DNA of 64,000 nucleotides from Thunnus maccoyii. Lineage: Eukaryota > Chordata > Actinopteri > Scombriformes > Scombridae. Positions 16,903 to 56,474 of this stretch are shown here, one piece after another (position 1 is the stretch's first letter; the number at the start of each line of letters is the position of its first letter). Where the stretch lies: assembly GCF_910596095.1 (NCBI RefSeq), contig NC_056554.1:5456001-5520000 (forward strand), given 5' to 3'. The notes below the pieces were generated by a model. The model was not told where the DNA came from. It did no database searches and saw only the letters and a list, made by a program, of their open reading frames with translations. A program made the translations under genes and the position numbers.

Positions 16903-16976
16903 CATCTCTGCCGGGACTCGAACCCGGAGCCTCTGGATTAGAAGTCCAGCGCGCTATTCCATTGCGCCACAGAGAC
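16903..16976 (-). tRNA. tRNA-Arg (anticodon TCT)
   Basis: The minus strand folds into a full 74-nt cloverleaf. Acceptor stem GTCTCTG pairs with CAGAGAT (first pair G-U), followed by discriminator G. The D arm is GCGC...GCGC around a loop with GG. The anticodon arm CTGGA-CTTCTAA-TCCAG gives anticodon TCT. A 5-base variable loop and T arm CCGGG-TTCGAGT-CCCGG follow. There is no intron. A-box and B-box (GGTTCGAGTCC) promoter elements are internal. Confidence 0.95.
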
Positions 16977-22970: not shown

Positions 22971-34954
<11,984 letters not shown>

Positions 34955-35075
34955 CCTGACGATCCTTTGAGTTGTATCCCTTCAGATGATTTTACCATGG
35001 AAGATAAAATGTTTTCCTTTGATAATTCCCGTTCCTGACGACGACAGTCTGCTGTGTAGCTTGCTGCTGCCACGG

Positions 35076-35083
35076 TTTATAAA
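35076..35083 (-). promoter_or_regulatory. TATA box of the IL-13Ra2-like gene (unit 1)
   Basis: TTTATAAA lies 122 bp upstream of the start codon at 34954 and reads the same on both strands. A GGGAATTATC element resembling an NF-kB half-site lies between it and the ATG (around 35021-35030). This suggests an inducible TATA promoter with a short 5' UTR. The start site is inferred. Confidence 0.5.
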
Positions 35084-36339
35084 AAAGGAAGAAACTCAGT
35101 ATGTCTGTTTCTCAACTCGACTTTCGATTCCAGCTTTATAGAGGAGATCATGCAAAAGAGTTGGAGACTGGGCGGAGATATTCCTCTTTTTTATTTGATG
35201 CGGACACGCGCGCGCAGGCACGCGCAAGACACGCATGTCACAAGCATACTCACTGTCTAAGGCAATTTACATTATGCCCATTAGGACTGCTATATCTAAA
35301 ACGGTGAGCACAGCATAAGGTTATTACTACTGCATATACAATAGTAGCCTGTGCTACAAAAGCAGCGCCAAACTGCGGTTAACTGACGCTTTATATTGTT
35401 TGTACAGTGTCTGTAACGTCCATTTTAGCAGCAGGCTCATAGGAAATCAAACTCATATGTCAGTGATCCAAGCTGCGACACGACCTCGAACAACAAAATC
35501 CAGGACTGATAATACCAAGTCCATCATTTCCTATGAAACCAGTATCTTTAAAAGAATGAACCACTCATTTGAAACTAGTGGCACGCAATCACAAACAAAG
35601 ACTTTCACTTTATCTTTTTAAATTCTCTTTAAATTAAAGCAGTATAATGTGTCAACCATCACCCAGAAAATGGTGCTGGTGAATCCAACAAAGCAACTTA
35701 AGACAAAAAAGCTTCCCTTAAGTTTAAGGAAGGAAGAGGGTATGACTAATGGTGATGTAGCATTGTGGATTTGGGTGTGTGGGCCAATGAGATAGCAGAC
35801 GTAAGGTTACACCATAATACTTCATTTTTGGAGTCCGCAAATTTCATGGTAATTTCCTGGAATGAAGGTTCTCATCAGTGAGTAGTTTCCAACTAGCTTC
35901 TAACTTCTGCCAAGCAGACCACCATATGGAAGTGAGTTGTTACAGCTTAATTTCCAAGTAGTTTCAGCCCAACTTCTGCCGGATAAAAAGTAAAGTAGGA
36001 ACTATTTACATTCTCACTAATTTCTGTATAATTTCAGCAGATCAGTACAACTTTGTAACAAATTTCATGACTGTCATTTTTTTATTGTTCTTCTCAATGT
36101 GTTGTGTATGAGAGCCTATCTGTGGATGCATTAAGTGTCGCCTATGGTTGACCTGATAACGGATGTTACCATCTTGCGACAGTCTTTCATTCGCTCTCCA
36201 ACAATCTGTGATAAAAAAATAAAAAAAAAACTATTAAAAACAAAATACTGAAAACTAAACTGAAGCTAAACTAAACTGGACATTAAATTCAAAAATAGTA
36301 TAGAAATAACAATAAGATTGAAAAGAGAAAACTATGATA

Positions 36340-36340
<1 letters not shown>

Positions 36341-36423
<83 letters not shown>
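36341..36423. repeat. (GT)n microsatellite upstream of unit 1 exon 1
   Basis: About 83 bp, with counterpart 43218-43296 in unit 2. Shorter GT tracts occur at 37405-37435 and 44275-44308. Confidence 0.95.
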
Positions 36424-36426
<3 letters not shown>

Positions 36427-37400
36427 AATATATGCTTGCTTTATGTCTAATGATCACCAAATCACAGACGTCAAGTAAATGTAACCTGTGTGTAACCTTC
36501 CCCTTGAGGTGGGGAATCTATGCTGCTGATTCTGGGTATAGTATCTACTGTATCTAAATCTAGGCCTCTCTAAATTATCTTAGACCCAAGATCTTACAGT
36601 TCAGTCAGATTACATGTCCACTTCAGTTGTCTAGGTTCAGTAAATTCACTGGGTTCGGTAGGGAGATTGGTGGTAGCAGACTCTACAAAGAGAGAAGACC
36701 TCCAACTCACACAAAACACACACAACCGCTGACTCAGGAAAAATAATAGAAAATATATTTATAAAGGCATTCTGTCTTGTTTCATTTTCCTGTTCGATTC
36801 TTTTTATACATTCAAAGAATCTTTTTAGAAAAAACAAAATTTCTTTGTTTGATGCAAATCTTCAACTCAGTCATATTTGGTCTTGAGTTCCTTCGCTTCA
36901 AATGTTCCTTTAATGTTGTTTGTCAACCTTGAGTTTCTTTATGACATCAGTTGCAGTCAGTTTTTAGTCTGTCTTGGGCCCAAGATGAAAAAAAATCATC
37001 TGAGATCTCTTATTATCACACAGTCTGAATTTCTTTGTTTCATTGTCCATCACATTGGAATTACTAATTGCTGATGTGATTCACTAGGAGAGGCTTGTTT
37101 TTCTCGGCCAGCAGCTGAGTTCACAGGAATCTGCCAAATTTTCAGCTTTTGTTTTAGCTTATTCGTAACAATTCACTATTTGCTGAGCTAGCGTGCTGTG
37201 GTTGTGTAAAACACAGTGGTGGTGGATGAAAGACTGTGGTCAGAGCAGATTGAAATACAGCATCACTTTTCTACACGTTATGCTTTTCAAACAGGTGTAT
37301 TGATAAAGTATTGGCTTTTTACTCTCTAAGATTTTATTGGAGTTACAGTAACAAACGCTCGTGTTATCTTCACTTCACCTGTGCTCTGCTGTTCATTGAC

Positions 37401-37438
<38 letters not shown>

Positions 37439-37851
37439 CTGTAGTGTGAGAATAAATTACACCAAAACTTTAAAAAGTACCAATAAATTAAATCAAATCA
37501 AGTTTATTTATAAAGCACATTTAAACTTTCCAGAGTTGACCAAAGTGCTGTACAATAAAATAACAAAAAGTTTTGCTCTCCTAAAATGGCTGCTTTGTAT
37601 GTTGTCCAAATTTTTAAGTTTTGGATTGTGTCACACCCCACATTACACAAATACATAAACAAACACACACACATCTCCATATTAGACAACTGCAAAAGTT
37701 AAGTTGCTCTCTGTCCAAGAAAGGACAGAGAGCAACTTCTTTTATAACTCTTAGCCTGAATGGGGAAGTGGGACGTATTTCAACAGAATGTTTCCTACAT
37801 AGGACACTTGCTACTAAATAAGCACTGGTCAGTCTACTTGTTGCATACTAC

Positions 37852-40073
37852 CTGTTACATCACTGATCCTGAAGGTGTTCCTGACAAGCTTGTTGTTCAG
37901 TGTTCCATTAAACACCATCATGATGGCATGTATAGGCTTCATCTGCAGATCACAACCAGTCCTGTTTCCATCTGTGTAAGTGTACGATGGGCACTCTTGT
38001 AATTGTATGTCTTCATCCCCTCCAGACTCATCTACTAACCTTGGAAAGATAAAGAAAAAGGTGATTGACTTTAACGCTGCACAATATTCCTGAAGTCATC
38101 AAAGGACTAAGTTGATAAACTGGTGAAATAATAATATGAACAAAGATTTACAGGAGCCTAAATTTACAACAGGTAAAAACAGGCAACATCAAAAACGGAC
38201 ATAGAATTCATATGCCAATTATCATTAAAAGAACCTAAATACGGATAAAACACTGTTCATTTAAGTAAAATAGTTGGACATTTTTATAAATGCACGTAAT
38301 CACTCTGCTCTGTCCATAGCTTAGCTTAGTTTGAGGTTTAAAGGATAAGTTCACAATTTTTCAAGTCTTAAAATTGTCTTAAATCAATAATGGTGCCCAT
38401 ATGAACATTGGACAGGTTTTGCTCTCAGTAATCATTCCTCCTGTTTATACTGACCATTAGAAGATCCCTTCATAATGCACTTACAATATAAGTGATGGGT
38501 GCAAAATCCACAGTCCTCCTTCTGTGCACAAACGGTTTTAAAAGTTTCTCTGAAGTCAATAAGAAGCTTCTGAGCAGTCTGAGTTAGTCAAATCAAGTGG
38601 ATTAAAAGTTACAGTCTTTTTGGTAACAAAATTCCCTCTTTGTGTTTCCTCGGACAGTGTTTCCCTGTTGAGCTGCGATGGAAGGATGGTAACAAAAAGA
38701 AGGAATTTGTTTGCCCCTCCAAGAATTACAATCACTCCACCGTAGCCCCACCAAGATGTCTGACATATAAACTCCTCTCTGATTTGCTTCATTGATTGGC
38801 TATTTCTCTTATTATCTAGTTAATCTGGTCCAGCAAATGCCTCCAGTTACCATAGTGACTTTCTCTGCACTGGAATCACCTGCTTGAGTTCACTTTGCTT
38901 ATGTCACATGACATATATTTAGTTTTTTTTGTTGTTTTTTTTTTTAGCTTTTTTTCTCTCTGAGCTGTTTCTCTGTTACTCTGGCTACACTTTCTCATTC
39001 CGTTTTCTGAGTTTACCACAGTAATCAAGCAAATGCCTGTCTTCTGTCTGCACTTGACTCTATCTATCCTCAAAGTGCTGAATATTAATATTCTGTACTT
39101 GATAGTATATAAATATAAAATAAATAATATTATCATTACCTGCTTGCTATGCTTGCTTATTCATGTAAATACAACAAACTCCATAGCCCCACCAACACAA
39201 GCCCTAACTCACCCCTGTAAGAAAAAATCTATTGCACTGCCTGCGTTCCATACAAGCACAGCTTAAAGTGAAAGTGTCACCCGCCCTAAAAAGCTGGGCC
39301 ATTAAACATGAGGTATTTGGCCTTAATTGAACCCTATCTCATTACTTCCACTTGGGTTTAGTCTGGCACTTATGTGATGAAACCAAGATGAGTCATCGTT
39401 TATCAAGAAATACTGCAATACATCTTTCTCACATATACTGTGTAACAATGAGCTTAATTTAATTAAGCAATAGCAAAACAATGGAGGCTGTGCTTAACGG
39501 ACATGCATCACTGAAGTGGCAACAATGACGGCAAAGTGTAATATTGCGATTATACAACAGCGACCAACAAAATAAAAAATATAAACAAAATATACTCATA
39601 TTGTGGGACAATTCGCTCTAGAAATGAAAAAAAACTGTTTCCTAGTGTTATCCCCGTTTCCATGGAAATACATGTCAGTGGCCAAACCTTATATACTACT
39701 CCAGCACGTCGGCAGACCCTTAGTAGTGGAACAGCAGTCCCTGTGGAGTGAGTCAGCCAGCCAACTTGAGCTAATGCTTTCTAGAGATCGTGGGATTTCC
39801 TAAACAGAATAAATACCACATATATAAACACAATACTGCTGTGCTAGCTCAGTCTTGTTGTAACTAAGATATCCACTGAATTTTTTTTTTTTTCCATGGA
39901 CAGATTTAGCTACTACATCTGCAAACTTCACAGACATTTTTAAGCTAGGATCAACATGTCACTGACTCACCGGCACAGCTGATGAAGGATGCCAGCTGAA
40001 ATATACTCTCAACTGGAGAAAATGGTTAAGTCTTGTTGTGTATGGGAGCCACAGGTAACGATAAAGACTGGAG

Positions 40074-40147
<74 letters not shown>

Positions 40148-42246
40148 GTGTGTGTGTGTGTGTGTGCGTGTAACTCGTCATGCTGATTTGACCACGTTCT
40201 AAATATCTAGTTGACCAATCAGATTGCTTGGTCAGAACTACCTGTTGTGTAATTAATTACTCTGAGACCACGTTGGATTACTGCTTCCCTTTGTCATTTG
40301 GTTGTATTAAAAAAAAAAAGAAAAAAAACAAACAAACAAATAAAGAAAATACATACTGATAGAAAAAACTGAAATCTGGAGCATGACTGGCTAGTTGCCA
40401 GGAGCAGTTAGTTTTACTGGAGGAGCGGATGCTGCAGTCCACATTCCTCACCAGCTCTGGGAACAGAAACACACACACACACACAAACACACAGCGACAC
40501 ACACACACACACACACACACACATCTTAATGGATAAACAGATAGATATTAATCCAGTCCATTTATGGTTAAAAAAAAAAAAAACCTTAGCCCACATTTAT
40601 TAAAAGAATGACACTTTTTGTTTACTCAAGAGCTTCCAAAATTTGATATCAGATTTTCTTAAGGGCAATAGCAAGCAAAATGAGCTACCTTGGTAAGTGA
40701 TGTTGTGGTCAGCCCACTCACTTTCTCTACCATCACCACAGCGAGCCTGAACAGAAAAATGCAGAAATCCTCCATTCATCACAAGGTGATATCGCTTTTG
40801 GTTGTCTTTCACCTGAAATCATCAAATACAGAAAAACAAACAAAACAAAAAAAACTGAGTGAACAACCAAAGCATAATCAGTAGTATTAACATAGAGACA
40901 ACCATATGCAATTTTGAATGTTGGTTTTGGTCTGTTTAGATGAGTTGTTGGTAGTAATAAAATGATCAGATGTAAAATCATATGTATGAAAAGAAGCTGG
41001 ACTCACACATATTTGTCATTGCTCATAGAGGTCAAGCCAGTCTTAATGGTAAGGTAGTTCATGCAGGTGATTTATTACTTGAATTGTGTATTGAAATTTA
41101 ATACACAGGGGCTTTAAATGTACAAATTGAAATAAGTACAACTCTAAGTACACTTCTGAGGTACTTGTACTTTACTCAAGTTCCCCAATTCAGATTAAAA
41201 GGGCATTCATCAGACGTATAATATAGGCTACAGCATACATTGCTGTTTAACAGAATCGCATTTATATGCATACGTACCATGCTTGTTTGTCTCTCAGTTT
41301 CATCCTTTGGGGAGGCAGTCACTGCATAATTCAGTGTGCAGTTTGGCAAATTCTGTGGTGGTGCCCAGGACAGCTGTTGTTCAAAATCATTAATCCACAG
41401 TACTGACAAATTGTATGGTTTTGAGACGTCGCCTTAAGTAGAGAGAAAGAGAAAAGACAGAAATCTGGTAACATAGGACTTCAGTGCACCTTTAAATTAG
41501 CAGTTTGATCTGTGAACACTGTTTGTGTATTCTTTTCATTCAGCCTGCTCATGTACAGTCACTAAAAAGTGCTTCTTTTGGATCATTTGCACATCTGGAG
41601 GAGCGGCTCCTGTTCAGCGACATGTCTGAACTTCCAAATAATCTTATCGCATGCTATAAAAACACTGCTGGCAAACCAAGTTTGGAGCCAGTCACTAGGA
41701 GAGAAAATATAAACAGCTACATTCATACCTGAAGTCACAGATCATGCTTATGTTGTGAACAATAACCACTGGCTACAAATCATTATACTAAGTTCCTTAT
41801 ATCTCCGGATCAGGTATGAGAAGTGTGTCACGTGAATTTAGTATATCCTGACGTAGTAATAGCAAGTCCACCTTAAACTGAACTATAGGCTATACTGTAC
41901 ATATTTTGATAGGTATAATATTTCAAATGGTACATGTTAAAGCCTGTTCAGACATCCTACTCGTGTTCTTTAATGTAACAAAACACATTTCTATCATCTC
42001 TTTTAAGTTTACTACGTTAGTTGGTGTCTGGCTCAACGGTGACGACTACTAGGTGTGACGTCATTACTGGAAAACACCGTTAAATCGGATATAGTCTGTG
42101 ACAAAACTGAAAAATTCGTTATGGAAGCAGCTCAGTGACAGCAAGGTGGAAAAATGAAACACAGCTATGTATATTTTCTTACCTGTTAGGGATTCAACGG
42201 CCACAGAGAGGGAAACTAAGACGAACAAATTCAAACATTGAAACAT
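37852..42246 (-). CDS. il13ra2: Second copy of exons 1-5 of the IL-13Ra2-like gene (signal peptide, D1, D2; no D3 or membrane exons)
   Basis: Exons: 42246-42183, 41432-41278, 40812-40689, 40456-40357, 38039-37852 (631 nt, about 210 aa). Frames are open, splice sites intact, and lengths equal the downstream copy except exon 3, which is 6 nt longer. No counterpart of exons 6-10 exists between here and the next gene copy: homology stops at 37573, inside intron 5. Exon 1 is identical to the other copy. Exons 2, 3 and 5 carry clustered replacements: residues 66-72 NIVYGEG become ETERQTS, RQF becomes KRYHL, and sequon NLT becomes NLP. Exon 5 ends in phase 1, so it could splice in frame to the downstream exon 6, or to downstream exon 2. 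Reading through its donor adds GSMQQVD and then a stop, which would give a secreted D1-D2 protein. It could also be a decaying pseudogene, but intact frames and replacement-biased change argue against that. Confidence 0.7.
38340..38745. repeat. Fish dispersed DNA-transposon fragment in intron 4 (unit 2)
   Basis: Duplicate of the fragment at 30385-30790, with only scattered substitutions. Confidence 0.45.
39880..39998 (-). mobile_element. Unit-2-specific T-rich insertion, possibly a short retroposed fragment
   Basis: Unit 1 reads directly from atatccactgaa to atatactctc near 32040. Unit 2 has about 118 extra bases starting with 13 T, that is, a 3' poly(A) on the minus strand. Short ctgaa repeats flank it. 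It arose after the duplication, or was lost from unit 1. Confidence 0.5.
40076..40171. repeat. (GT)n microsatellite in intron 4 (unit 2)
   Basis: About 96 bp; the unit 1 counterpart at 32115-32157 is about 43 bp. Confidence 0.95.
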
Positions 42247-42346
42247 CCTGATCCTGATGATTTTACCATGGAAGATAAAATGTTTTCCTTTGATAATTCC
42301 CGTTCCTGACGACGACAGTCTGCTGTGTAGCCTGCTGCTGCCACGG

Positions 42347-42354
42347 TTTATAAA
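42347..42354 (-). promoter_or_regulatory. TATA box of the duplicated exon 1-5 cassette (unit 2)
   Basis: The same TTTATAAA in the same context as unit 1, about 100 bp upstream of the ATG at 42246. The 5' leader is about 20 bp shorter than in unit 1. It shows that the upstream cassette kept its own promoter. Confidence 0.5.
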
Positions 42355-43215
42355 AAAGGAAGAAACTCAGTATGTTTGTGTCTCAACTCGACTTTCGATT
42401 CCAGCTTTATAGAGGAGATCATGCAAAAGAGTTGGAGACTGGGCGGAGATATTCCTCTTTTTTATTTGATGCGGACACGCGCGCGCAGGCACGCGCAAGA
42501 CACGCATGTCACAAGCATACTCACTGTCTAAGGCAATTTACATTATGCCCATTAGGACTGCTATATCTAAAACGGTGAGCACAGCATAAGGTTATTACTA
42601 CTGCATATACAATAGTAGCCTGTGCTACAAAAGCAGCGCCAAACTGCGGTTAACTGACGCTTTATATTGTTTGTACAGTGTCTGTAACGTCCATTTTAGC
42701 AGCAGGCTCATAGGAAATCAAACTCATATGTCAGTGATCCAAGCTGCGACACGACCTCTAACAACAAAATCCAGGACTGATAATACCAAGTCCATCATTT
42801 CCTATGAAACCAGTATCTTTAAAAGAATGAACCACTCATTTGAAACTAGTGGCACGCAATCACAAACAAAGACTTTCACTTTATCTTTTTAAATTCTCTA
42901 TTAAAGCAGTATAATGTGTCAACCATCACCCAGAAAATGGTGCTGGTGAATCCAACAAAGCAACTTAAGACAAAAAAGCTTCCCTTAAGTTTAAGGAAGG
43001 AAGAGGGTATGACTAATGGTGATGTAGCATTGTGGATTTGGGTGTGTGGGCCAATGAGATAGCAGACGTAAGGTTACACCATAATACTTCATTTTTGGAG
43101 TTCGCAAATTTCATGGTAATTTCCTGGAATCTAGGTTCTCATTAGTGAGTATTTTCCAACTAGCTTCTAACTTCTCTAGAAATAACAATAAGATTGAAAA
43201 GAGAAAACTATAATA

Positions 43216-43298
<83 letters not shown>

Positions 43299-44272
43299 AA
43301 TATATGCTTGCTTTATGTCTAATGATCACCAAATCACAGACGTCAAGTAAATGTAACCTGTGTGTAACCTTCCCCTTGAGGTGGGGAATCTATGCTGCTG
43401 ATTCTGGGTATAGTATCTACTGTATCTAAATCTAGGCCTCTCTAAATTATCTTAGACCCAAGATCTTACAGTTCAGTCAGATTACATGTCCACTTCAGTT
43501 GTCTAGGTTCAGTAAATTCACTAGGTTCGGTAGGGAGATTGGTGGTAGCAGACTCTACAAAGAGAGAAGACCTCCAACTCACACAAAACACACACAACCG
43601 CTGACTCAGGGAAAATAATAGAAAATATATTTATAAAGGCATTCTGTCTTGTTTCATTTTCCTGTTCGATTCTTTTTATACATTCAAAGAATCTTTTTAG
43701 AAAAAACAAAATTTCTTTGTTTGATGCAAATCTTCAACTCAGTCATATTTGGTCTTGAGTTCCTTCGCTTCAAATGTTCCTTTAATGTTGTTTGTCAACC
43801 TTGAGTTTCTTTATGACATCAGTTGTGGTCAGTTTTTAGTCTGTCTTGGGCCCAAGATGAAAAAAAATCATCTGAGATCTCTTATTATCACACAGTCTGA
43901 ATTTCTTTGTTTCATTGTCCATCACATTGGAATTACTAATTGCTGATGTGATTCACTAGGAGAGGCTTGTTTTTCTCGGCCAGCAGCTGAGTTCACAGGA
44001 ATCTGCCAAATTTTCAGCTTTTGTTTTAGCTTATTCGTAACAATTCACTATTTGCTGAGCTAGCGTGCTGTGGTTGTGTAAAACATAGTGGCGGTGGATG
44101 AAAGACTGTGGTCAGAGCAGATTGAAATACAGCATCACTTTTCTACATGTTATGCTTTTCGAACAGGTGTATTGATAAAGTATTGGCTTTTTACTCTCTA
44201 AGATTTTATTGCAGTTAGAGTAACAAACGCTCGTGTTATCTTCACTTCACCTGTGCTCTGCTGTTCACTGAC

Positions 44273-44311
<39 letters not shown>

Positions 44312-44394
44312 GAGAAGCTCAGCTCTAACACAGAGAGCAGAGGAGAGGCTGCAGTGTGAGAATAAATTACACCAAAAGTTTAAAAAGTACCAAT

Positions 44395-44770
44395 AAATCA
44401 AATCAAATCAAGTTTATTTATAAAGCACATTTAAACCTTCCAGAGTTGACCAAAGTGCTGTACAATAAAATAACAAAAATAAAATAAAATAACATAATAT
44501 GCTAAGCATACACAAATAAATAAGTAATAGTGAAACAGACAGATATAAGGACACTCAAAAACCCTTAAAAATGTTTATAGGGGGGGGACACTTAATTGAG
44601 AATGGTAAACTGTTCCAAAGTTTAGGGTCGGCTATTACAAAAGCACGATTGCCCTTACCCCTCAGCCTCCATCGAGGGACAGCCAGGAGCAGCTGGTCTG
44701 AGAGATCTGGGGTTGGAAAGGGGGCAGAGGAGCTCAGAGATGTACTGGGGCAACAGAGCCAGGATATTTG
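44395..44770. repeat. Fish dispersed repeat at the right edge of the duplication
   Basis: Contains caagtttatttataaagcac, aaagtgctgtacaataaaat and gccaggagcagctggtctga, hallmarks of a common teleost repeat. Only its first part is present at 37490-37569, where the duplication junction cut it. Confidence 0.6.
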
Positions 44771-45479: not shown

Positions 45480-46495
45480 GAGATCTCTGATCATTTTTTG
45501 GCAGATTCCTGTAAACTCAGCTGCTGGCTGAGACAAACAAGCCTCTCTCAGTGAATCACATCAGCAATTAGTAATTCCAATGTGATGGACAATGAAACAA
45601 AGAAATTCAGACTGTGTGATAACAAGAGATCTCAGATCATTTTTTTTCATCTTGGGCCCAGGACAGACTAAAAACTGACTGCAACTGATCAAGGTTGACA
45701 AACAACATTAAGGAACATTTGAAGCGAAGGAACTCAAGACCAAATATGACTGATAACCTTAAGGGAACTTAAGGGAAAGTTCAAGGGGAAAACAGACTAT
45801 CGAGAACTGATAACTGATAATAAGTGCATTTTGGTCCAACAGAGGATATATTTAATTTGTGTATGAAGCACTGAGAGTTGAACACTTCCTAATTTCTAAT
45901 TTACTGCAATTTTGGTTGTACATTCATTTGTGTTTAATTTTATTTCTGTGGTGTAACTGAGTTGAAGATTTGCATCAAACAAAGAAATTTTGTTTTTTTT
46001 TTAAAAAGATTCTTTGAATGTATAAAAAGAATCGAACAGGAAAATGAAACAGGACAGAATGCCTTTATAAATATATTTTCTATTATTTTTCCTGAGTCAG
46101 CGGTCATGTGTGTTTTGTGAGTTCTTTTTTTTTTGTCTTCTCTCTTTGTAGAGTCTGCTACCACCAGTCTCCTTCCCGAACCTAGTGAATTCACTAAACC
46201 CAGACAATTGAGTGAACCTGTAGACATAAAGCAAGCATATATTTAAACACACACACAGGCTATTATAGTTTTCTCTTTTGAATCAGCCTAAGTGTTTTTT
46301 CTATACAATTTTTTTTAATTTCATGTCCAATTTAGTTAAGCCTCACTTTAGTTTTCAGCAGTTTGTTCTTATTAGTTTTGTTTTTATCACAGATTGTTGG
46401 AGAATGTATCAAAGACTGTTGCAAAATGGTAACATCCATTATCAAGTCAACCATAGGCAACACTTTGTGCATCCACAGACAGGGTCTCATACACA
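45480..46495. repeat. Inverted, diverged third copy of upstream DNA
   Basis: This stretch is the reverse complement of about 36110-37135 in unit 1, with many substitutions and a few small gaps. Examples are ggacaatgaaacaaagaaat, tgaagcgaaggaactcaaga and agattctttgaatgtataaa. It also matches unit 2 where that copy is not deleted. A further fragment of the same sequence lies at 45170-45225. Confidence 0.8.
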
Positions 46496-46979
46496 ACACA
46501 TTGAGAGAGCCTGGCGTTCTTATAAGGAGAACATCTAATGCTTCAGGGGGAACTGAACACCCACAACTCTTAACATGAACCTCAGATTCATCGAGTGGAA
46601 CTACTGGTTGGCCAGAAAACACTGTGATGGAGTGGTTGGACGCCTTTTTAAAGACAGCAGAGCGTAATTTAAGGGGTAAAAGTAATACATGTAATAAAAG
46701 TAATTCATGTCAGAACCCCCCCTTTAATTTATTTCTTAACATATTGTCTCAAAATATAAAAAGTGACATTTAACTTGTTGAGTGGTGTGAAGACATTATT
46801 ATCAGGCCTCAATTAGAAAGCAAGGAGTGACATTTTTAAATGGGCATTCATAACTTGACTCTTGATTATGAAGTTGTATTTGTTGGTAATTAGCAATTTA
46901 TGGTGGCTACAATAAAAGGACATTTAGGAAATTTGGACTGATCTGCTGAAATTATACAGAATTGGTGAGAATGTAAATG

Positions 46980-48822: not shown

Positions 48823-51800
48823 TCAGGAATTTTGCTGGAGGACACTGTTTTCAGGCACAAGGGTAATTTTACAGGGTTCAATGGGTTCTGGCACCGGTGT
48901 GTACAGATTCCCCGGTGGAGTCTGAAAAACAGAACAGTGTGATGAGTGTTTCTGGAGACAAAGAGAGCATGTGAGAAGAGCATAGATATTTTAATTTTTT
49001 CCTGAAATATACCTTGAGTTCTTTGTTTCCGTTCATCATCATTTCCTTGAATATTGCTGAAGGATCTGGTATGATGGGGCAAATAATGGCTCTGTGCCTG
49101 GAAACAGACATATTACACCGAGCATGTCAGTGACAGAAAGCAACAGGTGGTACACAATGTTTCCACCATCAAAATGTAATGTTGTAATGTTAGAATATCA
49201 AGCAGATGTTTTTTCTTCAAGTAAAACTTGAAAAATCAAGTCTGTGTCTTTATTACAAAGAAATGACTGTGATGCACTTTGGCTGATGTTTTCAAGCATC
49301 AAATCCAGAGTTCATACTAGTCCTGGGAGAAGGAAATCTGAGTGTGTAACACGTGAGCTCTGGCTTCCAGTGATCTGCTCCTTCGTAATGAACATTCCTT
49401 TCCAATGACACTTTTCTATTTATTGTAGCTGTGCTTGCATGTGTACTTGAGGGGTGGGGTAGGTTTGTTGACCTCTTTCCACCCACACACAAGCTATGCT
49501 AGTGCCACCAGGTTTCCTCATGTTAAAGGGCTTTTTGTGCACAACTAATTTCCTGACAATACTATCATTAGTTTTCTTTAAGAAACATTTGTCACAAACA
49601 CATAGATAAACAGGGCTGATTACATAAGCTGTGCTTCTTGGGTGGTGTGATCAAAGGCACCAGATCAACTTTTATACAAAGTTTAGGTGTTGCAGTAATT
49701 TCCGTGACATGTTTTCATTGTTGCCAGTCTCCAATACTGTTTCACAAAGGTATGCTTCACAACATCCATGCTTGAGATAGACTGCACAATTTGGTGTAAA
49801 GCAATTTAGGCACCCAGAGATTTACTTTGTACTGTCTGCAGACACTTTGAGACAGAACTCTTTTACTTAGGTCTACTTAGGCCTACAGTTCTTTTTCCGA
49901 AACGTACCTCCTGAAGCAGTAACAGGACAAAATGACGCAGATGGACAGAATGACAGGGATGACAATGGCTACCACAGTCAGTGTCCCATCAGGAGGCTCA
50001 TTAGTACCTGCAATGAACAACAAACAAGTGTTCCTCAGCTTTTCCAAAGTCAAATTCAAGCTTTTTCAGGTCAGACATTGGTCATACATTGGTCAGGTCA
50101 TACACCAAAATGCAAACCTAAAAAACATCCCCAACACACCAGTTTAGAGTCATCCTGCTTGATCAAATCAAATTGTGGTGTTCCATGTGATCATTGATAG
50201 GAAATATTTGCAGCGCACAAGGAAGTGAAGAAACCACTGCAATAGTTGCAATCTGAAAAGTCAACATGATTTGTTTTCCTCATAAAAAAACATAAATTAA
50301 TAACTTTAATGATGTTTCCTCGTTCCCAGAGTGAATCTCACACTGTTTAAATCTGTGTGTAAGAGTCAATGTAAATATTATATTAATATCAAAGACCAAA
50401 ACACCGGATTTGCTGATGATAGGATCTGCTCTGCAAAATAGATCCTATGCATTATTAGTGGTCATTGCTGTGTGCCAAGTTGTCTTTTTTGATACTACCA
50501 CTGGGGGGCGCCAACATATTCAAATTGTACACATGGTGCCTTAAATGAAAGTGAAAGTGTCTGATCCGTGCCATAGGTTGGAGTTCATATTCAATCTAAG
50601 ACATTTGGCCATCTTGTATGTGCAAGGACACATTTTGTGTTTTAAAACTCATCAGGAATCTAAGTTGTCCACAATTATAGACATTAAGACTTAATAAGGA
50701 AATAAAAATATATATTGTAAAGCATTCTGTCCAGCAGTTTTCTCATGTTGAGAGTTGAGTTAAAGTCTCCTCTGTAAACCTCTGTAGCAAATCTTAAAGC
50801 AACCTAATATTTCAACAGTTGTCTGGAATCATCCCATTTTAGATGGCTTGTTCTGCCTTGTTTGAATGTATAAAAAAAAATAAAGTAAAACTCTGTTACT
50901 TTGCTTTAGTGCACTTAATAAACACACTAAAACACACAATAAAATGATTATAAGTAAAATTGGTTAGACAGTTACCATAAGTTACAACTTCAGTGAAGTC
51001 ACTTCTTATTGCAGTGCAATAGATACTGTTCATGGTCCTGGATTTGAACTCATAGCGGCATCTTTTATCGTAGGCCACCATGAAATGCTTATCTTGTGTA
51101 GTGATGTTCTTGCATTCCTGAAAAAAATTGAGCACACAGTGTTTTGTTAGGGATATAGCCATTCATTAAATAAAGATGAAGTTGCCTCAATTTAAATGTC
51201 TCGACCTGAGCACAACATTTGCAACTGACTCAGACTCAATGTTCAAATTTTAAAACATGTCGGTGTAGCAAAGACAAACCTCATTATATAAAAGAGGAAC
51301 AACTTTGAATTTTTAGGATGAACAGTTATATTTGTCAACTTACCATGGGCTCACTGCATCGTCCGTAGCAGACCTCGTATATCCAGTGACAAGTCTTTCC
51401 GATCTCTGGAGGTGTCCAGCTTAGTTTGAGCTTATCTCCTTCTTTTGTGACACTCATATTTCGCAAAGGTAGCACTGAGGAGATTGTAAAAGAACAAACA
51501 AACAAAAAAAAATCCAATATTTTTTCAATTGTACTTGACAGCAAAAGTATAAAAACAAGACTCAATCACTGGATATGAAAGTATTCTTTAAAAGCAAATG
51601 TTTTATATTTCTTTTCACAATTTGTATGACATCAATATTAAACTATTAAGAAATAACACCAACCAAATGAAGGTTTAAAGGTGCTCCTTCCAGCTTCAGT
51701 TTCCACACACATGCAGATATCTTTCTCGTAAATGGCACCTTTCAGGTTACAATTGCCCCTCTTCTCATCACTGTAAAACTTGTCACACGATTTTAAAGGT

Positions 51801-54800
51801 TTTCCCACTTCAGAATTTCCACAAATCCTGTCATGATAAAACAGGGGAGTGGGGAGTTAGCGACACATGGTTTATACAGAGTATTTCACCCAAACGCTCC
51901 TCTTTGCTCTGTCCTCACTGTTGATGCTGCAATTCCTTCAGTCGCCACTAGATGTCCATAACGCTGACAGATTATCTTCAAACCAATATAATCCCTGTGC
52001 ACTGATAAATGAGTAAACTCCACCAGCCCTGAGTGATGCATGAAAATCCACATGTACATCAGTGCGATCATTTTCACCCTGCGCTGCTGATGGCCAGTTG
52101 AGCACTTTGAGGAAGAGATCTCAACATTCTGGCACTTAATTCCTGTTTTTTTCCTGACATTTATCTGTTGACCTAAAGGCTGAATTGCTAGATGTTATGA
52201 ACAAAGAAGAGTGATAGTGTGTAAAATATCTTCCTGTAAAAATGACACTTTAGAGGAACTATAGAGGCTACGCAAACCCACATGGCTTGCATAATGTTGA
52301 ATTTTGCAACCTTATATTCAAATATATAGGAAGAAAAATTTAACAACAGGAAGAACTCCTCCCCACTATTTCCTCATAGTTGTTTTTCTGCAAGAGCTGC
52401 ATAACAGAGCCTAGGTTGTCCTGACATTTACCATCACTTGACTAAGGAGAAAAAATAAAAACAAACTGCCGTTGCATGATTTCACGGTTGTTGAGTCAGT
52501 TCCACTGAACCAATTACAATGCAAGTTAAATGCTCCTAAATGTACAATGACATGACATGAAAACAATTCCCTCAGATAAAATTTCAACGACCATCATTAA
52601 AAGTTAACTGTGCATGTTTTGATATATATATATCCTCTACTTTGGCTGTTGCCTGTAATTCTCACCTATAGGAGAGCTTCAGCTTAAGAGATGAATTTAC
52701 TGGGATCCAGGAACAGTTCATTTCATTGGGGTAGGTGAGACATTTGAAATCCTTCACCACTTCAGCTGTGTAATACAAAAACAAAGGTGTCTTAATCTTA
52801 ATATAAGACCTCAGTTAGTTACATCATTGTCATTGCAGCTTTCTGGTTCTTACCTTGAGGCTTAGGGGCCTTAGTGGTTATGGTCACAGGTGTGCTCCCA
52901 TTCCTGTCAGAGGGATTTTTGCTGACAGTACGAATGGTATACTTGCAACCGTCAGAATCCATGTCTTCTGTCATACAAGTGCATCTGATATTTGTCAAGG
53001 TTGTGCGTCTAGGCTAAAGGAAAAAAACAACATGGGCTTTAATGACAACTATGCCAACACATATCCAAACATTTTGTCTTCTGCATCCAACCACCTAAGG
53101 TTGGAAGTGCATTGTAAAAAAAAAATGAAATAAGTCAAAAATGTTCAAATCCAACACAAAAGGGCTTTCATTTTCAGCATGAAACTCAACCAGCAGAGAT
53201 GTAAGATTTTTTTTGTACTTTTTTCTGTGTTTTAGGACATTAGACATATTAAATTATTGTTATTTTTGTGTTGTTGTTGCTGATTCTCAAATCATGGATA
53301 CCAGAGATTCCTTTAATGGATGACCAAGGAAGATTTTCCTTGTTCCTTGCTCCTTGTCCAATTTCTTATCCTTAGCATTTTGTGCTGCACTTCCATAAAA
53401 TTGAGGGACTTGTGAGACAGAAAGAATGGTAAAAAAATTGAGGCTGAGATATACCAAAAATCACCCCACACTTCCCATAATGCAACCTCATAGTACTCAA
53501 AAAAAAAGTGTAGTCTGATGATATCATCAGATTTTCAGTATGAGCCCTCCCTCCTGAGCCACAAAGCATGTTACACAACAGTTTCCCTCATGATGAGTAA
53601 ATTCAACTTGACATATAAGGCAGTTGAAGTGAAACCAATGAGCTGCCTGGAATCAATCTAAAAGAACTGTGTTTTACTGTTTGGCTGTAATGTAATTTAA
53701 AGTATGTGATCTGTAGCTAATGGGCTACATCTGTGTTTCAGTGAGGTGGATCTAATTCTCCATCGTTTTATTGCTGCAACCCGGGGACACCAAGACCCCC
53801 CCCACCCACACCAAAGAGACACAACTCATCATTTTTCCTACATTCGTGTCCTTCAAGGACTGTACTTCATATTCAATGTCACAGTTGTCCAGCAGACCGG
53901 TGGGCTTCAGCCAGGACACGTTGACAGTAAACGGGTCCAGCCATTCATATGACAGCTCTGTCGGTGGAGGAAGGCGATCTGTTGGACGAGAATTTAAAAA
54001 AGAGGAATTACCCTCACCTGTTCACAACTAATGATGCTGTTATAGGCTCAAAGGATCACAACACTAGCCCCAGCAATCAATTCAATTCAATTTCAATTTC
54101 AATTTTTACATTTATTATTCACAGATGCCACTGGTTTTCTCATAATAACAGTAAAAACCTGCAGATAATTCCAGATAAGTACCCAGAACTCATTTCTGCC
54201 TCAGGCCCATTAGGTTAATCTGGCAATGACGATGATATAAGGATGATGATATAAGGAAATAAGATTTTCATATAGACCCGTTTTGCATCGTAAAAGAAAA
54301 TTCACTTCCTCTTACGTTTGAACTAATTAGTCATGGTGCAACACACTGCGGTTAAGTGGGCTGAAATATGACATAACTCCTTTAACGTAACGTGCAATCA
54401 AGGTTGTTTATTGGTAGTGAGCTGAGCAAACATGAGTTTGAGAAAAACATTTCCCCACAGCTGTTTTTCTAAAAATCCCAAAAGATGAATTATATTCCTG
54501 GAAGAATGTCTATGTGCTCAAATAACAAATAAGTTGTCTCAGAGATGTTTCAGTTTAAGAGAAAGCCAAGTAAAATCACCCATAAACTAAATGAGATTTA
54601 TGGGAAATGACAGAGGATTCCTACTCTAACTGTCCTTGTCAATACCCACCTAAGGGTAGCTACGTAAAGTATGAGTTGATATTTCATATGTGTCATGAAT
54701 CGTTCCTGATCTCCCTGTATTTATACTTCATTTATACATCTACTCGTTTGTTTTCAAGGTTTCTAATTCTCCTGTTATTTCAGATCCTGCCACTCCCTCA

Positions 54801-56474
54801 AGCCATGCTATCACCTTATTCCCTTCACCTAGTTTTTCCTGCCAATTTCCCCAACTGCAGCTCATTCCTTCATTAGTTCGTCAGCACATATATCAGTAAA
54901 TCTCCACTAGTTCCTTGCCAGATTGTCCTCTGCGTTGTGCTAACCTTTCCAGCACTTCCTACCTGATTCCTGAACCTTTCTGTCTGAATTTCAACCTGAT
55001 TCCCTGGGCCTTGATTCTCTGCCGGTTAAATTTGTCTTCTCTGATTGATCTCCTGTTTCTGACCCTTGCCTGTTTACTGGAATAAACCTTATGAACTTTT
55101 ATTTCTTACCTGACTGTTTTCTGTGTGGTGCTTTTGGGTTCTTACCTGTTCTGAGTCAGTGAGCGTTACAATATGGATATAGAAAAGGACAGAATGGGAA
55201 TTCAGTGGGATTTTAGCATGTGGGCAAACTTTGCATGTGAAGTCAAATATGATGAAAAGTTTGTTCTGTTCAATATATTTTGAGACTGACAGTGAATGTA
55301 TTTTGATAAAGTGAATCCACAGTTTTCAGCAAACCTCTTCCTGACGGATTAAATATAGATTACTGAGTTTGCAGGTGCCTTTACCTTGTAGCATTTTCTC
55401 AAACTGTAGAATGATTTTATTTTGGAATCAAATTCAATTTCCTGTAGGCCTAAAACCACTTTTGCAAATTGTGTTTTGACACCATATTGAAAGATTTTCG
55501 ACAAATATAACATATTCTATTAATATATCATTACGTTACATAAACTAAAATTATTACATTACTCAGAGCTTGTACCGTCATTGCACAGTAAGGGCGCAAC
55601 CAAATCTATACGAGTGGTATAACCATTATTACAGAGTGAACATGTAGAAGTTTATTGAGCAGCAGAATTAATATTTGTTGTTCAAACTCGACAGAGAGAA
55701 ATTAGAAATATGTAGATATAAGTGATAATTATAGTTGAACAAACGGAAGAGATAGGAGGGAATCCTATAGAAAAATCACTGGGCTAATGATCAACCGACT
55801 ATGCTTCGGCTTTGACTTTATGGTTTTTCCAAACCTCCAAGTTTCAATGTGTGTGAACATTTTCACCATTCTCCGTGACAGAGCTTTTTCATGATGCCAT
55901 GTGCGTCATTACAGCCAGTGTTACACCGTATTTGGTGACACATCAGATTCTGCTACCTGCAGTGTTGTAATAAGTATCCTTTACTTAGGAAACCAAGTAA
56001 AATAAAAGTAAAGTAAGTAAAAGTATCAATACCGCAATGTAAAAATACTTCATTACAAGTAAAAATCCTCCATTTAAAATCCTACTTAAAATACTGGTAA
56101 TTTAGCTGGTAACACTAGCGTACTTTTACGTAAGTAGGATTTTAAATGCAGGATTTTTACTTGTAATGAAGTGTTTTAACATTGTGGTATTGACACTTTT
56201 ATTTAAGTAAAGTATACTTCCAACACTGCAGGTCACAAAATCTACGGGGTCACCAAATACAGTGTAACACCGACTAAATGAACTTTGGTATCATAAACGA
56301 GCTGTGTTGTCGCCTACAAACCCTCACCAGGCTCTTAATATACAAGATAATACCTGTCTAATGTAAGCTGTTATTACAACGGGTGGTGAAGTTTGTCTTA
56401 CCTGCCTCACAGTGGAATACCAATGTCACGGCGCTGCATGTTAGAAAAACAAACAGCTCCTGAGGTAAAGTCAT
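48823..56474 (-). CDS. il13ra1: IL-13 receptor alpha-1-like class I cytokine receptor, complete, 10 exons
   Basis: Coding exons, 5' to 3' on the minus strand: 56474-56402, 53978-53842, 53013-52854, 52765-52666, 51827-51664, 51474-51344, 51117-50976, 50007-49908, 49097-49013, 48921-48823. GT/AG borders and phases agree; 1191 nt, 396 aa (human about 427). Signal peptide begins MTLPQELFVFLTCSAV. D1 about 25-123 (VNVSWLKPTG), D2 about 124-211 (MNCSWIP plus four or more cysteines), D3 about 212-302 (LKLSWTPPEIGKTC), membrane helix about 312-334, tail of 62 residues. Box 1 and following residues PIIPDPSAIFKEM (343-355) closely match what I recall of mammalian IL-13Ra1 (PPIPDPGKIFKEM). The tail ends with CKITLVPENSVLQQNS. 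The chain pairs with IL-4Ra for IL-4/IL-13 signalling through JAKs bound at box 1. Oddity: the WSXWS site at the end of D3 reads SDFTE. Exon phases are identical to the alpha-2-like neighbour, so the two are ancient tandem paralogues. Confidence 0.85.
54600..55175 (+). repeat. LINE-like 3' tail in intron 1 of the IL-13Ra1-like gene
   Basis: Pyrimidine-rich, cct-repeated text with ggaataaacctt, tggtgcttttgggttc and gtgagcgttacaat resembles the 3' end of fish non-LTR elements. No reverse transcriptase frame is present. Confidence 0.4.
55917..56271. repeat. Long inverted repeat (about 355 bp palindrome) in intron 1
   Basis: The outer arms cagtgttacaccgtatttgg and ccaaatacagtgtaacaccg are complementary, and the inner arms continue through acctgcagtgttg / caacactgcaggt and a run of agtaaa / tttact motifs. 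Fold-back pairing spans nearly the whole element with a short centre near 56095-56130. This fits a hairpin MITE nested in, or extended by, another. Confidence 0.75.

Follow-up and report, generated by a model that had tools for sequence, protein, structure and literature searches.

Within a 64-kb window of the Thunnus maccoyii genome (C22:5456001-5520000, the whole stretch of DNA analysed here), a cytokine-receptor gene carries two nearly identical sets of 5' exons that differ sharply over a short stretch of one exon. The locus raises the question of what made this stretch differ, and whether the two sets could serve as alternative ligand-binding heads of a single receptor.

The window contains a head-to-tail duplication made up of unit A at 29617-37567 and its counterpart, unit B, at 37568-44479, each with five minus-strand exons that have GT-AG splice sites and encode a signal peptide and the domains D1 and D2. 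Cassette B comprises exon 1 (42183-42246, signal peptide), exon 2 (41278-41432, first half of D1), exon 3 (40689-40812, second half of D1), exon 4 (40357-40456) and exon 5 (37852-38039); the corresponding exons of cassette A are located at 34891-34954, 33986-34140, 32733-32850, 32343-32442 and 29901-30088. Exons 6-10, encoding D3, membrane span and tail, are present downstream of unit A only, on the same strand: exon 6 (29378-29505, first half of D3), exon 7 (24567-24690, second half of D3, with EWSDK), exon 8 (24248-24341, membrane span), exon 9 (24089-24164, box1-like IFPKVPEP) and exon 10 (22971-23066, tail and stop). The reading frames are open in both cassettes with identical phases (1-0-1-2-1), and exon 6 can be joined in frame to either one, yielding products of 380 and 382 aa; both heads retain all seven cysteines and are free of stop codons and frameshifts. 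A search of the genome (782 Mb, 54 contigs) for exons 6-10, in which only the best candidates were scored, gave no second copy, all five of the matches listed being in the A/B gene. Two complete 5' modules and one common in-frame 3' part, the arrangement by which alternative 5' cassettes are recognized, are therefore both found in this gene.

The units are further distinguished by large indels, of which two are A-only (33206-33892 and 35908-36298) and one is B-only (39876-39995); the 687-bp A-only segment stops some 90 bp short of the exon-2 end that diverges. The sequence at 45497-46506 recurs as inverted repeat copies, 87-96% complementary, at 36092-37138 and 43582-44010, within or beside the duplicated units, and probably represents a transposable element. 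A tRNA-Arg gene with anticodon TCT is located at 16903-16976 (minus strand).

In the non-coding DNA of the tandem unit, 102 of 5914 sites differ (1.7%). A divergence of this size with large indels could be heterozygosity, in which case A and B would be alleles of one cassette put in tandem by the assembly and the difference in exon 2 a contact-strand polymorphism. The assembly itself argues against such a false duplication, which we consider quite improbable: the A/B junction is continuous sequence, the absence of any N across the surrounding 224 kb rejects a gap-related misassembly, and all five self-matches with a length of 500 bp or more and an identity of 92% or higher in these 224 kb are pieces of the A/B duplication, with none elsewhere.

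The A/B gene encodes an alpha chain of the class I cytokine receptors and was examined for features of the IL-3/5/13/GM-CSF branch. D2 of A contains the four-cysteine CxW module (C120, C130-S-W132, C162, C175), and the IL6Ra-bind domain (PF09240) is matched by A with 27.6 bits and by B with 24.7 bits, both above the cut-off of 24.3. D1 aligns with human D1 domains; its fn3 match (A residues 25-85, E 6e-5, 23.5 bits; B 21.2 bits) is under the 25-bit cut-off in both heads, and matches to CRLF2-type D1 and tissue factor are below their own cut-offs. The WSXWS motif of D3 is only partial, as EWSDK; accepted members of this class I receptor branch also carry degenerate forms. The single membrane span, a hydrophobic stretch in exon 8, and the box1-like motif of exon 9 were read by eye from the translation. 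With IL-13Ra1, IL-13Ra2, IL-5Ra and GM-CSFRa the gene shares a putative N-terminal FnIII domain followed by a two-domain cytokine module, a membrane span and a short box1-like tail; it differs from them in the duplication of exons 1-5 before one tail, the degenerate WS motif and low identity.

Directly upstream, at 48823-56474 (minus strand), lies gene N, likewise a complete class I cytokine-receptor gene, with 10 exons and 396 aa, so that two related receptors stand in tandem. N aligns with A along its full length, with 25% identity in the ectodomain, and its tail carries the motif IIPDPSAIFKEM, which we take to resemble the tail of human IL13RA1. The human gene order is IL13RA1-DOCK11, and two of ten genome matches to DOCK_C-D_N are located at C22:5571838-5575512, 52-56 kb beyond the window end, as expected if the locus common to the A/B gene and N lies in an IL13RA1-DOCK11 neighbourhood. 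Because N aligns over its full length and has an IL13RA1-like tail and a DOCK-type neighbourhood, the A/B gene is, judged by sequence, a tandem paralogue of this IL13RA1-like gene. It was not filed as an IL13RA1 orthologue itself, since the tail of N is more IL13RA1-like and the best PDB matches are others, namely gamma-c for A alone (E 0.011), GM-CSFRa for the A + B profile (E 8e-5) and gamma-c for the A + B + N profile (E 7e-7). IL-13Ra1 was absent from the PDB matches of A, A + B, N and A + B + N, those of N alone being weak and fibronectin-like. For zebrafish and mammals, IL-13Ra1 and IL-13Ra2 are entered as 1:1 genes in a published listing (PMC1963337).

Comparison of the cassettes exon by exon gave 0 differences in 64 positions for exon 1, 19 in 155 for exon 2, 5 in 118 plus a 6-bp in-frame indel for exon 3, 2 in 100 for exon 4, and 7 in 188, all replacements, for exon 5; the sum is 33 by DNA alignment and 34 by codon alignment, where exon 3 counts 6 instead of 5. 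The differences of exon 2 are confined to its 3' end (41278-41346 in B, minus strand), where 18 of them occupy the final 65 nt (41278-41342) and the other is at 41346; from 41347 to the 5' end the exon is identical. A preliminary description of the locus had correctly recorded the identity of exon 1 and of the first half of exon 2, and also the total of about 19 substitutions, which it had assigned entirely to the last 65 nt; the 19th lies just beyond, one base past the range given there (41278-41345). Its count of 12 altered codons with 11 replacements, seven of them in a row, is reproduced by the codon alignment: residues 66-72 read NIVYGEG in A (33989-34009, minus strand) and ETERQTS in B (41281-41301, minus strand), with 14 of 21 nt differing. 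Further replacements are found at 56, 58 and 60, within the predicted strand C codons 56-60 (41317-41331 in B, minus strand). For the adjoining intron, the 5-bp indel was described correctly, and the roughly three changes reduce to two substitutions in 93 aligned columns (41180-41277).

That the coding DNA diverges faster than the neighbouring intron, as had been claimed, is confirmed for the exon-2 tail against both this intron piece (Fisher P = 2e-6) and the whole of intron 2, with 5 differences in 448 (Fisher P = 1.5e-13). Relative to the unit background of 1.7%, 18 differences in 65 nt correspond to a binomial P of 4e-17, or 3e-13 when multiplied by the number of positions, and the next-densest 65-column window contains 8 differences. 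As the exons minus the exon-2 tail show no significant rise over non-coding DNA (15 of 560, P = 0.13), the excess is confined to one short stretch. Lesser clusters, mostly of replacements and including adjacent double changes and the in-frame 6-bp indel, were seen in B exon 3 (40724-40796) and B exon 5 (37863-38017); outside the block, 14 of 19 exon differences are within 6 nt of another, compared to 42 of 102 in non-coding DNA. A glycosylation sequon in A, N49-L-T, is lost from B via T51P.

The replacement of amino acids in 11 of 12 codons had been taken as a signature of diversifying selection. This argument was rejected by simulation, since random change often yields a fraction of at least 11 in 12, namely in 20% of random-hit and 45% of block-replacement simulations (P = 0.20 and 0.45). 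The codon-based rates that had been proposed as a check gave a dN of 0.0635 and a dS of 0.0311 for the whole head, based on 34 differences in 208 aligned codons after removal of the two inserted ones; the N:S of 17:3 outside the block is compatible with neutrality (P = 0.17), with an omega of 0.5 or below being rejected there (P = 0.009 for 0.5, P = 0.0003 for 0.3). The sole positive sign of selection is a depletion of synonymous changes in the block, with 1.0 synonymous difference seen and 3.6-3.7 expected under random replacement (P ~0.011, regardless of which copy is taken as replaced). As a test chosen post hoc and based on seven codons this constitutes mild evidence, and to that extent the earlier claim retains support; selection on the divergent strand is not yet proven.

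Conversion from an unseen third copy, the other origin suggested before, found no counterpart in the assembly. Protein searches of the genome for a third cassette placed all eight matches in A or B, a DNA search with 212 nt returned A and B as its only two matches, and 27-mers with up to 3 mismatches, run against the whole assembly for a donor, gave one match each, in the cassette itself; a donor could still reside on another haplotype. When a local template for the block was sought on both strands of the two exon 1-4 regions, nothing scored better than shuffled blocks.

The searches for a template also bear on a single mutational accident, i.e. a block replacement or multi-base error in one exon 2 that arose without selection while one cassette was redundant and drifting. 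Both the replacement fraction and the N:S outside the block fit such an event. It would, however, have occurred with no template nearby or genome-wide, with fewer synonymous changes in the block than predicted (P ~0.011) and in a head that shows neither stop nor frameshift and retains its cysteines, and the changes in strand C and those in the block seem to have arisen in different copies; we regard it as rather unlikely.

Alternatively, the heads could be old, with the block representing old divergence that was spared or protected by selection while gene conversion between A and B levelled the rest. The identity of the block, 7 of 21 nt, is at the level of chance (P = 0.27 for that or more). 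In addition, the non-coding differences are clustered (variance/mean of 1.95 over 59 windows, each of 100 columns; P = 0.0002 by permutation), an identical run of 237 columns adjoins the last exon-2 difference, and the longest identical run extends over 378 columns (permutation P = 0.04). The clustering and the 237-column run leave room for A-B conversion that spared the exon-2 stretch; but intron 2 shows no clear increase in differences next to the block (2 of 93 and the indel), and the clusters are also explicable by rate differences along the unit, so that on balance we find this history unlikely.

As to which copy changed, the cassettes were compared to four outgroups, N and human IL-13Ra1, IL-13Ra2 and IL-5Ra. 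In the block, B is closer to them, mostly at residues 70 and 71 (BLOSUM sums of -36 for A and +21 for B), and in the other columns A is closer, chiefly at 58 and 56 (-31 for A, -57 for B). The outgroups are remote, N and A sharing 25% identity in the ectodomain, and the polarity of these changes is accordingly weak; permuted B block residues attain the score of B in 17% of cases (P = 0.17). The assignment therefore serves just as a lead, according to which both heads may have changed, each at other positions. A simple decay of cassette B was rejected, given its intact frame and cysteines and that A, not B, looks derived in the block.

The altered residues were placed in the receptor by a low-identity alignment of A, B, N and human IL-13Ra1, IL-13Ra2 and IL-5Ra. 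In this alignment, residues 56, 58 and 60 are every second residue of the predicted strand C and residues 66-72 form the following strand, where they align with the ligand-contacting strands of the IL-13Ra1/IL-13Ra2/IL-5Ra/GM-CSFRa branch. The 'D1 loop' of the preliminary description is supported, by alignment, as to D1, and alternate residues of strand C with the next edge strand describe the predicted location better than a loop. In human IL-13Ra1 the hot spots are W65 and K76-I78, and in human IL-5Ra DDYE. For related complexes, a structural account reports that this domain pairs its D strand with the beta2 strand of the cytokine in a common sheet, that the site in IL-3Ra involves the C, D and E strands with the DE and EF loops, and that the domain's share of the interface is 47% for IL-13Ra1, 34% for IL-13Ra2 and 64% for IL-5Ra (PMC5785977). 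The alignment equates the strands described there with residues 56-72 of the A/B gene, so that the altered residues (56, 58, 60 and 66-72) are predicted to lie in the cytokine-contact part of D1.

Taken together, we favour one gene with two alternative ligand-binding heads on one stem, heads whose contact strand would have functionally diverged by selection, and give this reading slightly less than an even chance. The head-to-tail duplication would have produced two 5' cassettes, both complete with an upstream region, a signal-peptide exon, D1 and D2, and both served by one common group of exons that encode D3, membrane span and tail. In transcripts from cassette B, exon 5B would be joined directly to exon 6 and cassette A left out, such that the choice of upstream region would select the head, and one locus would give rise to two receptors with different heads and the same signalling stem. 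Since the alignment places the divergent stretch in the portion of D1 whose edge pairs with the cytokine, a difference between the heads in the affinity for cytokines or in their choice is expected. On this reading, selection for this difference most likely drove or preserved the replacements, and apart from the divergent strand the duplication would be young or kept alike.

Alternative 5' cassettes on shared 3' exons are established for UGT1A and the clustered protocadherins, which resemble the A/B gene in having several upstream modules, a common downstream part and in-frame joining; the A/B gene, a candidate for this type, differs in being a cytokine receptor and in having just two cassettes, both of five exons. 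In the primate L/M opsins, also tandem duplicates, one exon is kept distinct by selection, the remainder being homogenized by conversion. They share with the A/B gene one exon in which the coding sequence has diverged more than the introns, whereas seven consecutive codons at chance identity are particular to the latter. No report of a duplicated receptor head of such kind was found among titles of the open-licence literature, which does not prove its absence in print.

From its neighbourhood and branch, the A/B receptor may sense an IL-4/13-type ligand. Accounts of these ligands in fish describe fast-evolving IL-4/13 genes (PMC4905449) and, in sea bass, two tandem IL-4/13A isoforms alongside one IL-4/13B (PMC5440397). 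More tentatively, and with some doubt, the cytokine-pairing strand could be undergoing diversification, with the remainder of the duplicated 7-8 kb staying near-identical and the choice of an IL-4/13-type ligand being made by promoter. If true, a head duplicated and altered at the ligand-pairing strand, on a stem that is not, would provide a matched system in which receptor-ligand co-evolution could be tested, the heads being set apart by a single clean exchange of about ten residues.

Two other outcomes of transcription from cassette B are conceivable. Splicing of exon 5B to exon 2A, which is in frame, would yield a protein with five FnIII domains, and read-through of exon 5B would add 7 codons before a stop and yield a soluble D1-D2 protein. 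AATAAA sequences are located past exon 5B at 37508 and 37338.
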